From: Natronoglycomyces albus
GTDB lineage: Bacteria; Actinomycetota; Actinomycetes; Mycobacteriales; Micromonosporaceae
Direction: 5' to 3'
Assembly (NCBI RefSeq): GCF_016925535.1
Contig: NZ_CP070496.1
Location: 3,758,257 to 3,822,256 of the forward strand
DNA length: 64,000 nt
The position numbers and the translations under genes are program-made. The notes under the pieces are model-generated. The model was not told where the DNA came from. It saw nothing but the letters and a program-made list of their open reading frames with translations, and searched no databases. This document shows, piece after piece, positions 28,682-60,859 of the stretch. Position 1 is the first letter of the stretch. Every line of letters starts with the position of its first letter.

Positions 28682-28750
28682 CCCTCAACGGGCGCAAGCA
28701 AAGTGAATAAAAAACCAGCAATCGGCGTGCTACAGTGCAGGTCAAGAAGT
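28682..28750 (+). promoter_or_regulatory. Leader of CRISPR array 1
   Basis: The stretch before the first repeat carries AAAGTGAATAAAAAA and GGTCAAGAAGT. The reverse complement of the array 2 flank carries the matching AAAGTGAATGAAAA and GGTCAACAAGT at the same place. This marks the transcription side and the site of new spacer addition. Nothing else is seen between 28495 and here. Confidence 0.7.
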
Positions 28751-29327
28751 ATGCTCCCCGCGCACGCGGGGATGAACCCAACTGAGACCATCACAGACCG
28801 TGATAATTTGAATGCTCCCCGCGCACGCGGGGATGAACCCTAAAGGCGGCGACGAACCGCAGCGCCAAAGCAATGCTCCCCGCGCACGCGGGGATGAACC
28901 GTAGAGAACCAAACCCTCTAGTGAGGGATCAAAATGCTCCCCGCGCACGCGGGGATGAACCCATACGAACAGCCCCAATCATTCGGGTCGTTCTATGCTC
29001 CCCGCGCACGCGGGGATGAACCTTAACCGCATCAATAGCTACGTAGCCACCCGGGATGCTCCCCGCGCACGCGGGGATGAACCGCGCCAAACGAACCGAA
29101 CGAGCCCAACAATGAGATGCTCCCCGCGCACGCGGGGATGAACCGTCGTTCGATACAAGTCTGGCAATGTTCATGGAATGCTCCCCGCGCACGCGGGGAT
29201 GAACCCTACCGCAACATCGCAGGCCACCTCGCCGGTGAATGCTCCCCGCGCACGCGGGGATGAACCCGGTGGCTGGAGCGTCACAGCATCATCCGAACTA
29301 TGCTCCCCGCGCACGCGGGGATGAGCC
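28751..29327 (+). CRISPR. CRISPR array 1, type I-E repeat, 10 repeats
   Basis: Ten 28-base repeats (core CTCCCCGCGCACGCGGGGAT, ending GAACC) begin at 28751, 28812, 28873, 28934, 28995, 29056, 29117, 29178, 29239 and 29300, an exact 61-base period with nine 33-base spacers. The last repeat has GATGAGCC instead of GATGAACC, a typical trailer-end mutation, so the array is transcribed on the plus strand. The inverted CCCCGCG/CGCGGGG stem and length are those of type I-E (Cse) systems. No cas gene is in the window. Confidence 0.98.
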
Positions 29328-37641: not shown

Positions 37642-37667
37642 TGGCTTGCCGCTGCGGCGGTGTCTTT

Positions 37668-37727
37668 GGGGTGGTGCTTGGGGTGGTGCTTGGGGTGGTG
37701 CTTGGGGTGGTGCTCGGGGTGGTGCTT
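37668..37727. repeat. Five copies of a 12-bp repeat
   Basis: GGGGTGGTGCTT repeats five times in register; only the fourth unit has one base changed. It begins 26 bases after the PrsW stop. Confidence 0.9.
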
Positions 37728-37802
37728 GCGGTGGCGCGAAACATCGTGGGGCTGGGTGGAAGCGCGACCGCCTAGCGTGTTTATCCGGCTGGGTCGAGTT
37801 TC

Positions 37803-37938
37803 GGGCAGTCGGGCAGTCGGGCAGTCGGGCAGTCGGGCAGTCGGGCAGTCGGGCAGTCAGGCAGTCAGGCAGTCAGGCAGTCAGGCAGTCAGGCAGTCAG
37901 GCAGTCAGGCAGTCAGGCAGTCAGGCAGTCAGGCAGTC
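37803..37938. repeat. Seventeen copies of an 8-bp repeat
   Basis: Seven GGGCAGTC units are followed by ten AGGCAGTC units with no other change. The block ends six bases before TTATCCACA (37945-37953), a perfect DnaA-box sequence. All frames stay open through it, but no coding gene is convincing. Confidence 0.95.
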
Positions 37939-40364: not shown

Positions 40365-40604
40365 CGCAGCCCTCGCGTGCATGGAAAACACTTATTGACC
40401 TAAAGCTTGGCGCTGCCATCAGTCGAATTCCATTCACGGTGACTCAGGCGCTACGGTCGTGCCGGTAAAGCCGATCAGGAAATCGTTCATATACTTTTCG
40501 ACTTTTTTGCGAGGGGTGTAGCAATGTGTATCTAGCGTGACCGTACGTGTCACCTGGAGCCACTCGCCCGAAGCAACCACACCTTAGGAACCGCTCTGTG
40601 CTTA

Positions 40605-41012
40605 CTAAGGTCGCGCTACGATCGCTGAAACCCCTGGGAGCTCATCGAAACATGCTGATTCATCTGTCGTTACAACCGATCGGGCGGTTGCCACGGCCGT
40701 TGCGGCAATCATGAGATCGTAGGCGCCTCGCTTCTTGCCCTGGGACTTCACATACGCCAAGAGCCTCGCGTGGACCCTGGCCACAGTCATGTTGTAATCC
40801 TCAGCTGGGACAAGTGCCAAGACGGTATCGATAAAGCGTTGACGCATCCCTCGGTTGTAATCATTGGCCAGCTCCACACCCGCCAGCAGTTCGGCAACCG
40901 TGACGGCTGCGATGGCGATGTCGTCATCGTCGAAGCAGACCGAGTCCAGCGAAATCCTCCCGCGCACGGCAGCAACCAGCACTCCCGTGTCAAGGATTAC
41001 TCGTCGTCCCAC
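40605..41012 (-). CDS. VapC-family toxin, PIN-domain ribonuclease
   Basis: 135 residues. Acidic PIN residues are at Asp8 (VILDTGVLVAA), Glu in VAELLAGVEL, Asp in AYDLMIAATA and Asp in VVTTDESAC. It should cut RNA when freed from its antitoxin. Its start overlaps the antitoxin end by 16 bases. The 240 bases downstream of it (40365-40604) hold no gene. Confidence 0.92.
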   Translation of the reverse strand: MGRRVILDTGVLVAAVRGRISLDSVCFDDDDIAIAAVTVAELLAGVELANDYNRGMRQRFIDTVLALVPAEDYNMTVARVHARLLAYVKSQGKKRGAYDLMIAATAVATARSVVTTDESACFDELPGVSAIVARP

Positions 41013-41257
41013 AAGTTCCTCGAATCGTGATCGACAGCCTCTCGCGCGGAGCGAACATCTGCTTCCCGGTGCTCGTCAAGGCTCTGCCGGAAGTCGGCCA
41101 TCGCCTTGAGGAACTCACCACCATTGACCTTTGGCGTCGGGACGAGCTTGGCAACACGCTGTCCGCCACGAGTGATGATGATCGTCTCGCCTCGCTCGAC
41201 CTCGTTGATCGTAGCTGCGAAGTGTCGCGAAGCCTCAGTAACAGTTATCAGCTTCAT
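40997..41257 (-). CDS. Phd/YefM-type antitoxin of the VapC pair
   Basis: 86 residues. The Phd/YefM DNA-binding start is ITVTEASRHFAATINEVERG, then GETIIITRGGQRVAKLVP; the acidic C-terminus should wrap the toxin. It leads the pair and likely represses the operon. A degenerate CRISPR repeat lies about 100 bases upstream. Confidence 0.92.
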   Translation of the reverse strand: MKLITVTEASRHFAATINEVERGETIIITRGGQRVAKLVPTPKVNGGEFLKAMADFRQSLDEHREADVRSAREAVDHDSRNLWDDE

Positions 41258-41354
41258 GGAATCTAACTATCAGATAAATGCTCTTCACTAGCGGTAAAAC
41301 AGACTGTTGCACGGGGAACGTTTATGTCACTTGCGAACGAAAGTCAGTCTGGTA

Positions 41355-41465
41355 GGTTGCTCCCCGCGTGTGCTGGGAGCTTTGCCACTTGATCAGCAAC
41401 GTAAAACCGTCCATGGCCGTTTTTCATTCACTTTTCGGCTCAATGTGCTCGCTCTCCTTCGGAGC
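41355..41465 (-). CRISPR. Relic CRISPR locus: one degenerate repeat plus leader
   Basis: 41355-41382 matches the array 2 repeat at 23 of 28 positions (core TCCCCGCGTG, then GGGAGC). The bases after it (CAGCAACGTAAAACCG, CCATGGCCG, TTTCATTCACTTTTCGGCTC) match the array 2 leader at 43415-43470 in order and spacing. It is therefore a lost or never-expanded array in the same orientation. The 3' end of the TetR gene at 41424 lies inside this leader. Confidence 0.7.
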
Positions 41466-42233
41466 TTTGTCACCGAGGAGAAAATCGTTCATCAAGTCTT
41501 CGGCCTGTTTTACGAATGGCCGCAGCAACTTGTAGCGCGATAGCGTGATCGCCCGAGCGACCATGGGTGCTGTCTTGCGCGCCAGCGCGTAGCTTCGGGT
41601 CTGCTCGTCGGACTTGTCGTACACCCAGAAGAGGACGAGGCCCATTTGGTGTAGCCACATCATCTGGGGCAATGTCTCGGTCATTTGCGGCGGGACCTTG
41701 GTCGCGGTGTTGCGCAGGATTTCTCGGTAGAGATCGATCGTGCGTTCGCGAGAGACGGACGATTCGGGCGAGAAGGGGCTCAGTGGGCTGTCGGGGTCGG
41801 CTGCGTTGCGGAAGAACTGGCCGGCGAATTTGTGGTAGGGCCGCGAAACTTCCAGCCATGACACCAACGCTATTTCGATGCTGTCGGCCAGGTTTGGCTT
41901 CCCGGCCTTTTCGGTGGAGGCTTTGGCTGCTATTCGGGCGCGGGCTCGCGCGACGTGCCGGGTGGTGCTGTGTTCGTAGAAGCCCTGGATGAGGTGATCT
42001 TTGGAGGAGAAGTAGTAGTAGGCGTTGCCTACGGAGACACCGGCTTCAGCCGCGATCGCACGCATGGTGGTCTTTTCGTATCCATGCTCGACAAACATCT
42101 TGAGGGCTGTGTCCATGATGGTTTGTCGGGTGCGTTCGCCCTTGCTGCGCGCACTTGTATACGCAGCTGCTCCACTGGGCTGGGTGGGGCTAATTTCAGG
42201 GCGTTTACCCGCGTCTGAAGCCGGTGTTGTCAC
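41424..42233 (-). CDS. TetR-family regulator, autoregulated
   Basis: 269 residues from GTG 42233; the frame is open back to 42353 but that overlaps the upstream gene. The helix-turn-helix runs RQTIMDTALKMFVEHGYEKT to GVSVGNAYYYFSSKDHL. The last ten residues (ESEHIEPKSE) are encoded by CRISPR-leader-like DNA. It follows a membrane protein gene by ten bases; both lie behind two strong palindromes. Ligand unknown. Confidence 0.88.
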   Translation of the reverse strand: MTTPASDAGKRPEISPTQPSGAAAYTSARSKGERTRQTIMDTALKMFVEHGYEKTTMRAIAAEAGVSVGNAYYYFSSKDHLIQGFYEHSTTRHVARARARIAAKASTEKAGKPNLADSIEIALVSWLEVSRPYHKFAGQFFRNAADPDSPLSPFSPESSVSRERTIDLYREILRNTATKVPPQMTETLPQMMWLHQMGLVLFWVYDKSDEQTRSYALARKTAPMVARAITLSRYKLLRPFVKQAEDLMNDFLLGDKAPKESEHIEPKSE

Positions 42234-42243
42234 GATTTCGATC

Positions 42244-42666
42244 CTACGTGGCGACCTTGGGCTTGGGCTCGCTGCTAGGCGGGGGTGGCTCGAGTCGTGA
42301 CAGTGAACCCGCCGACGCATTCCCATTGCGGCGGATTCGGTTGAGGACGACAACGTTGAGAACGTGCATGGCCCCCAGAATGAGCAGGACGGCGCCCAGC
42401 TTGAAGGCGACCGTCTCGAAGACGTCGCGCGGGGTGTGGATGGCTTCGGTGACGGGCATCCAGAAGACGACGAAGCCCAAGTTCAGCAGGTAGAAGCCGA
42501 CTTGCAGCAGTTTGTTGACAGCGGTGGCAAGTTCTTCGTCGCCAGCAAAGACGTCCTTGATGAAGTGGTAGCCGTTGCTGCCCAGGGTGCGCCCTACCCA
42601 GACTGTCAGCACGAAGGCCAATCCAAGATAGACCGAGTAGCTGACGATGGCCATGTCCGTTTCCAT
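42244..42666 (-). CDS. Four-helix membrane protein in the TetR operon
   Basis: 140 residues; AAAGGA precedes ATG 42666. Hydrophobic segments are YSVYLGLAFVLTVWVG, LLQVGFYLLNLGFVVFW and LGAVLLILGAMHVLNVVVL. A Pro/Ser tail ends the protein. No known motif. It is the first gene of the operon, so it is probably induced when the regulator is released. Confidence 0.8.
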   Translation of the reverse strand: METDMAIVSYSVYLGLAFVLTVWVGRTLGSNGYHFIKDVFAGDEELATAVNKLLQVGFYLLNLGFVVFWMPVTEAIHTPRDVFETVAFKLGAVLLILGAMHVLNVVVLNRIRRNGNASAGSLSRLEPPPPSSEPKPKVAT

Positions 42667-42692: not shown

Positions 42693-42747
42693 TTGAACGT
42701 GTTCAATTATGAATCTGAGCGTACAGGATCTTTTGAACATGTTCAAA
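42693..42747. promoter_or_regulatory. Two TetR operators 40 bp apart
   Basis: TTGAACGTGTTCAA (42693-42706) and the perfect palindrome TTTGAACATGTTCAAA (42732-42747) have centres 40 bp apart, about four helical turns. They sit in the promoter of the membrane protein/TetR operon and are almost certainly its autoregulatory sites. Confidence 0.8.
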
Positions 42748-42828
42748 CTGAGGATAGGAAGAACGAGAAACTACTGGTGCAGACCGACTTTCGTGGCAAC
42801 ACCAGGCAGCACCGAAAAGATAAGCGGA

Positions 42829-43405
42829 GGTTCATCCCCGCGTGCGCGGGGAGCATGCAAGTTCAGACAGCGCTACGTTGCGGCCTGAGGGTTCATTCCC
42901 GCGTGCGCGGGGAGCATTTATCTCTCATTGCCTTACGAATATTCTTTACCGGTTCATCCCCGCGTGCGCGGGGAGCATTGGTGTGAACATTTTTGATATC
43001 GACCACGATCAGGTTCATCCCCGCGTGCGCGGGGAGCATTTGGTATATGTGCCAATGACACACACGCCGATAGGTTCATCCCCGCGTGCGCGGGGAGCAT
43101 AGGGTGTTTCGCGCTCTCTTACCCATGAACTCAGGTTCATCCCCGCGTGCGCGGGGAGCATGTAGGTGTGGGAGATGGTGAAGGGGATGAAGGGGGTTCA
43201 TCCCCGCGTGCGCGGGGAGCATCCCCAACCCCACAGCGTAGAAAGAATTCGCCGCGGTTCATCCCCGCGTGCGCGGGGAGCATTCGATATCAGCGATCCT
43301 AGCTAGGTCTGTCCCGGGTTCATCCCCGCGTGCGCGGGGAGCATCACTTGTCCTCTGAATTCATGGCCGCGTTGCGGGGTTCATCCCCGCGTGCGCGGGG
43401 AGCAT
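42829..43405 (-). CRISPR. CRISPR array 2, same type I-E repeat, 10 repeats, opposite strand
   Basis: Ten repeats, the reverse complement of those in array 1, start at 42829, 42890, 42951, 43012, 43073, 43134, 43195, 43256, 43317 and 43378 (61-base period, nine 33-base spacers). The repeat at 42890 has TTCATTCCC for TTCATCCCC, marking that end as the trailer. Transcription is therefore leftward from a leader beyond 43405. No cas genes adjoin. Confidence 0.98.
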
Positions 43406-43490
43406 ACTTGTTGACCAGCATCGTAACACCGCCCATGGCCGATTTTCATTCACTTTCGGCTCGATGAGCTCGCTTTGTTCCGGGCCTTCC
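43406..43490 (-). promoter_or_regulatory. Leader of CRISPR array 2
   Basis: Conserved with the relic at 41383-41465 and, in reverse complement, with the array 1 leader. Shared blocks are CCATGGCCG, TTTTCATTCACTTT and CGGCTC. The remaining bases to 43606 show no gene. Confidence 0.7.
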
Positions 43491-43606
43491 CCTTCGCAGA
43501 CAACACCGCTCGTGACACGCTGTACCGAAACCCCGGCTCTGTGCCTCACCGAACCTAGCTAGCAAGTGCTCGCTCCTGAGCCGCGCTACGCAGCGCCTGG
43601 CAAGAC

Positions 43607-60632: not shown

Positions 60633-60790
60633 GCAATGGCAAGAGATGCGCGGGGAGCACGGAAGTCCCTGCCCCTACGTTTAGGCCCGTAGAGCTCATC
60701 CCCGCATGCGCGGGGAGCACAGCGTGGACGAGCCCTAGCAACTTGGCCGACTGTGTCGATAACAATCGCGCTCCCCGCGCAGGCGGGGGT
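60633..60790. CRISPR. Decayed CRISPR remnant
   Basis: GATGCGCGGGGAGCAC ends at 60660 and CTCATCCCCGCATGCG, continuing CGGGGAGCAC, ends at 60720, exactly one repeat unit (60) apart and in array 2 orientation. A third, opposite copy (GCTCCCCGCGCAGGCGGGGG, from 60770) aligns with the trailer repeat of array 1 and, with its TTTT, now looks like a terminator. No intact repeat remains. Confidence 0.65.
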
Positions 60791-60859
60791 TTTCTTTGGC
60801 TTTGTGGCTCGCTGCTCACTCGGGGCCCACAGGCCACAACCAAGCAGCACTATTTATTG

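Follow-up and report, generated by a model that had tools for sequence, protein, structure and literature searches.

In most descriptions, CRISPR leaders are non-coding. Degraded type I-E loci, with few repeats, a recognisable leader and a terminal repeat that is degenerate at its 3' end, have been described in Escherichia and Salmonella (Touchon and Rocha 2010, PMC2886076), and decay of the 3' end of the terminal repeat is usual in CRISPR arrays (PMC2886076). Minimal CRISPRs have also given rise to CreA guide RNAs, in which two degenerate repeats surround one spacer (PMC8501985). The locus described here, which lies directly behind a gene for a TetR-family regulator, resembles the Escherichia and Salmonella relics in each of these respects. 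It differs from them in that the TetR gene runs into its leader, and in that a second copy of the relic bears a TetR remnant. It shares the two degenerate repeats and the single spacer with CreA but, unlike CreA, is without a convincing promoter target and keeps a real leader and a first repeat better than CreA requires.

Genomic setting and intact arrays

The window, that is, the whole stretch of 64,000 nucleotides that was analysed, lies within a chromosome of 3,937,850 bases (contig C1), in a genome of 4,012,379 bases on three contigs. The repeat ATGCTCCCCGCGCACGCGGGGATGAACC makes up three intact arrays in this genome. Array 1 (28751-29327, plus strand, with its leader at 28700-28750) and array 2 (42829-43405, minus strand, 10 intact repeats) fall inside the window, and leader alignment places the array 2 leader core at 43406-43456 on the minus strand. 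Array 3 is located elsewhere on the chromosome (C1:361901-362416), and its terminal repeat has likewise decayed at the 3' end.

A single type I-E cas operon was found genome-wide (one Cas7 match, one Cas1 match), at C1:1489000-1508000, far from the window. Since the arrays beside this sole operon carry a different repeat, GTGCTCTCCACGGACGTGGAGGTCTTCC, arrays 1 to 3 are orphans by repeat. The leader of the right-hand cas-array has the same 3' end, GGTCAACAAG, as the array 2 leader. The arrays of the window may accordingly be orphans, or may be served in trans given this common leader end. The window also holds short tandem repeats, perfect or near-perfect, at 37804-37938 and 37666-37734, after a membrane-protein-like gene; the units are GGCAGTCA (about 17 copies) and TTGGGGTGGTGC (about 6 copies).

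A decayed one-spacer array

The relic lies on the minus strand. It begins with a leader core of about 52 nt (AAAGTGAATGAAAA..., 41383-41434), which has a 1-nt insertion and has lost its repeat-side GGTCAANAAGT end. This is followed by a degenerate first repeat, AAGCTCCCAGCACACGCGGGGAGCAACC (41355-41382), identical to the intact repeat at 23 of 28 positions, by a 33-nt spacer, TACCAGACTGACTTTCGTTCGCAAGTGACATAA (41322-41354), and by a terminal repeat (41294-41321), of which only the 5' half is recognisable and the 3' half has decayed. The leader is thus on the correct side and strand relative to the repeats. Over 65 nt it shares 88% identity with the leader of array 2 (E 5.8e-16), and a leader-plus-first-repeat model built solely from the three intact arrays matches 41355-41434 on the minus strand with 42.6 bits (E 2.3e-10 for the whole genome). 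The 5' half-repeat ACGTTCCCCGTGCA of the terminal copy matches at 11 of 14 positions exactly 33 nt past the first repeat, where it is the top match in the next 150 nt, against a background of 8.8e-5 per position in the window. The relic therefore has the regular 28 + 33 nt alternation of repeat and spacer.

A sequence-only reading had proposed a lost CRISPR locus here, consisting of a single degenerate repeat and a well-kept leader in array 2 orientation, 1.4 kb away. The loss is supported and the orientation and the distance (1.45 kb) are confirmed, while the half-repeat at 41294-41321 shows that the repeat is not single. Judged by its sequence, the relic is what is left of a type I-E array with one spacer, now dead, and comprises a leader, a repeat, a 33-nt spacer and a terminal repeat decayed at its 3' end.

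An intact leader-repeat junction for spacer uptake was not found at the relic. Where the intact arrays have GGTCAANAAGT followed by ATG, the relic has GATCAAGTGGCA followed by AAG, together with the 1-nt insertion. Because this junction is damaged, affecting both the integration-side end of the leader and the repeat, the relic is unlikely to take up spacers. The first relic repeat still folds into a hairpin (-14.8 kcal/mol, versus -14.3 kcal/mol for the intact repeat). This kept hairpin could hint at a retained function, and counts against a dead array. A terminator at the relic was rejected, as the hairpin is not followed by a T-run and no terminator was called there.

The TetR gene and its C-terminus

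The TetR-family regulator (TetR_N and TetR_C_23 in Pfam; 41424-42233, minus strand) comprises 269 amino acids from a GTG start. Its frame stops with TGA inside the relic leader, and its C-terminus reads ..MNDFLLGDKAPKESEHIEPKSE. The leader core that is common to arrays 1, 2 and 3 and to relatives begins at AAAGTGAAT, and the TetR codons within this core are AGT GAA TGA and part of a Lys codon. The preceding stretch, which codes for ESEHIEP (41435-41455, minus strand), also occurs in the array 2 flank and is absent from arrays 1 and 3. The possibility that ESEHIEP belongs to a longer leader was rejected, as the 12 nt preceding the core are variable among relatives, with a loose tcttgc-type pattern in some.

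TetR residues 254-269 (GDKAPKESEHIEPKSE) come after the last helix. In the predicted structure, this helix spans residues 235-252, and residues 256-267 have pLDDT values below 50. The 16-residue tail is accordingly predicted to be disordered and probably has no structural role. The closest homologues of the protein are found in Glycomyces, and all of the TetR relatives compared come from outside the genus of this genome. Glycomyces TetRs mostly have 4-6 residues beyond the last helix and then stop; these and the other relatives end soon after DFLI, with unrelated residues. The tail seen in this genome is absent from every TetR relative examined, and so no relative that is without CRISPR at this place was found to share it. 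Leader-array repeats were absent within 5 kb of TetR in the Glycomyces loci tested.

The TetR gene is paired with a neighbour gene without a Pfam match (42244-42666, minus strand), and the pairing is also kept in Glycomyces and in Yinghuangia. TetR-operator-like palindromes, GAACGTGTTC and TTTGAACATGTTCAAA, are located at 42697-42750, before the operon formed by the neighbour gene and TetR.

Genes that end in leaders

The leader core AAGTGAANNAAA..AGGTCAANAAGT is conserved across the family, with pattern matches in 12 of 355 genomes and model matches in 14 of 61 relatives. Its 5' motif, AAAGTGAATGA, contains a stop (TGA) in two of three frames, and a gene that runs into the leader therefore ends there. 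In many of the genomes with this core, the preceding gene is cas2e, and its frame closes within the core. In an independent set of 30 cas2e loci of the Micromonosporaceae sensu GTDB, chosen on cas2 score only, 20 have a stop less than 50 nt from the first repeat, several of them with a different, shorter leader; two of the 30 were scored by separate reading, as the simpler pattern did not match them. Cas2 was identified by Pfam in one relative and in this genome, and by tblastn in the others. The cas2e genes that end inside the core do so with EEK, NQSE, SYSDEN, QVNEKPQDHG or EQSEGKSGS before the stop, and about 18 nt lie between the stop of this genome's own cas2e and its array. Genes of other kinds can also end at a leader: a DUF397 gene (ending in CADK) does so in one relative, and the PP2C gene that precedes array 3 does so here.

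The TetR gene shares the leader motif with these cas2e genes and, with several of them, the frame in which it stops (AGT GAA TGA, giving a terminal SE), the stop being supplied by AAGTGAATGA. The difference is that those cas2e genes stand before a live array, whereas here a dead array follows TetR. A partial literature search turned up no account of an overlap between cas2e and the leader in Actinobacteria. The overlap had been thought an uncommon case, which does not agree with the frequency of cas2e stops close to the repeat, several of them in the same motif. The TetR-leader overlap is genuine, but as a genomic fossil it is fairly ordinary.

In this family, the 5' motif of the leader doubles as the end of the preceding gene, mostly cas2e and here TetR. 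This explains how an unrelated gene can receive a tail from a leader, and why minor variation at the C-termini of Cas2e or neighbouring proteins may reflect nothing but leader DNA. TetR would also provide a traceable example, in which an array and the end of a neighbouring gene were copied together and then decayed.

A second relic and the flank of array 2

About 1 kb from the first relic lies what appears to be an older one (40371-40543, minus strand). Local alignment detects a second remnant of the TetR C-terminus (..MNDFLIG..) at 40471-40543, which scores 42.5 against the C-terminal codons of TetR, compared with a maximum of 37 among 300 shuffles. This remnant is followed by GTGAATGGAATTC...AGGTCAATAAGT and then by a broken repeat. 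The leader remnant (GTGAATGG...GGTCAATAAGT) and the broken repeat, at 40371-40437, were detected by the leader-plus-repeat model (E 5.3e-6 in a 2-kb region, E 0.010 genome-wide) and by nhmmer (E 2.4e-4 in the window). Taken alone on a genome-wide scale, the leader of the older relic is marginal. Genes for a Phd/YefM antitoxin and a PIN toxin (Pfam; 40605-41257, minus strand) lie between both relics.

The upstream flank of array 2 (GEGPEQSELIEP, 43457-43500, minus strand) also resembles the 3' end of TetR, its outer part being weakly supported. When the alignment is anchored at the core, the similarity of this flank to the TetR 3' end spans about 60 nt, with a score that was reached by none of 400 shuffles. 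Past the first 20 nt the match is weaker, and 7 of 400 shuffles reach its score. Array 1 flanks, used as controls, do not match the TetR 3' end. The frames of TetR and array 2 are equal up to PK. There TetR has AAAA and array 2 has AAA, and this 1-nt indel separates the frames, so that TetR continues with PKSE and a stop and array 2 with PKVNE.

These comparisons refine what the sequence-only reading had made of the tail. That the TetR frame ends inside the leader holds for about the last three sense codons and the stop (KSE-stop). The claim that all of ESEHIEPKSE is leader DNA stands for the terminal (K)SE and stop; ESEHIEP lies outside the core that alignment of the three leaders shows to be common to all three arrays, and is confined to the relic and the flank of array 2. 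Similarly, the array 2 sequence SELIEPKVNE is in the same frame as the TetR tail up to PK, and out of it after the indel.

Origin of the overlap

The explanation that we regard as highly probable is that a one-spacer type I-E array, now dead, once stood flush behind TetR on the same strand, and that TetR ends in its leader motif. Shown directly are the relic with its second repeat, the position of the TetR stop within the core of the leader, the similar endings of cas2e genes, and the lack of this tail in the relatives examined. The array would have stood behind TetR in the place held by cas2e in related species, and TetR, on running into the 5' motif AAAGTGAATGA, would terminate at its TGA. 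A local duplication of the unit of TetR 3' end, leader and repeat may have produced the older relic (40371-40543) and supplied the flank of array 2. The relic array would no longer take up spacers, as the integration-side end of its leader and its repeat are damaged.

The direction of copying could also have been the reverse. The array 2 leader, with its ELIEP-coding flank, would then be original, and TetR would have gained the whole ESEHIEPKSE tail from a leader that landed behind it. The shorter TetR relatives, none of which has the tail, are consistent with this, as is the flank common to array 2 and the relic. However, in arrays 1 and 3 and in relatives the leader does not include this flank, the homology between array 2 and TetR appears to extend further into TetR codons, and the second relic has the TetR 3' end joined to a leader, all of which make this direction rather unlikely. 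Because the flank homology seems to run into TetR codons, and because of the second relic, the favoured course is that array 2 received the TetR 3' end and the leader together. It is more likely that array 2 carries a copied TetR tail than that TetR took its tail from the array 2 leader.

Alternatively, the relic could have been kept as a putative CreA-like guide RNA, with which the genome's Cascade would tune the TetR operon that transcribes it. Two degenerate repeats around one spacer and the retained repeat hairpin are what such a guide would have, and spacer positions 4-18 match 42780-42794 at 14 of 15 positions, upstream of the neighbour gene and TetR operon, a match that 3 of 3000 shuffles reach when the 162 nt upstream of the operon are searched. 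This match was found post hoc, however, and is equalled by 13 of 150 shuffles across the window; several real spacers match elsewhere just as closely, and the seed (spacer positions 1-3) is mismatched. Loss of the 3' half of the terminal repeat is the decay pattern of an ordinary array end, and an unsystematic look noticed neither toxin RNA nor CreT. The spacer-match statistics give a functional guide RNA no window-wide support, and retention of the relic for such a purpose is very improbable. Least credible of all is a chance resemblance, in which a divergent TetR tail happens to precede a GC-rich hairpin. Tails are indeed variable in this TetR family, but the leader and repeat jointly reach E 2.3e-10 genome-wide, and the elements are in the right order and orientation with the second repeat at the exact 33-nt spacing; on these grounds chance was rejected.

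Other decayed mini-arrays

Decayed mini-arrays are not unique to the TetR locus, since similar relics occur at two other places in the genome. At C1:1974831-1974894, on the minus strand, lies a decayed one-spacer array, in which a leader end (GCCCCAGCTCAATCAAT) and a repeat (ATGCTCCGCGCCCAGGCAGGGATAAACTC) are joined by a spacer some 32 nt long and by a terminal repeat decayed at its 3' end. Within the window, a decayed mini-array of the same repeat, with two repeats and one spacer, is found at 60633-60720. Beside it lies an inverted repeat-like hairpin with a T-rich tail (60768-60795), which is terminator-like and matches the repeat core.
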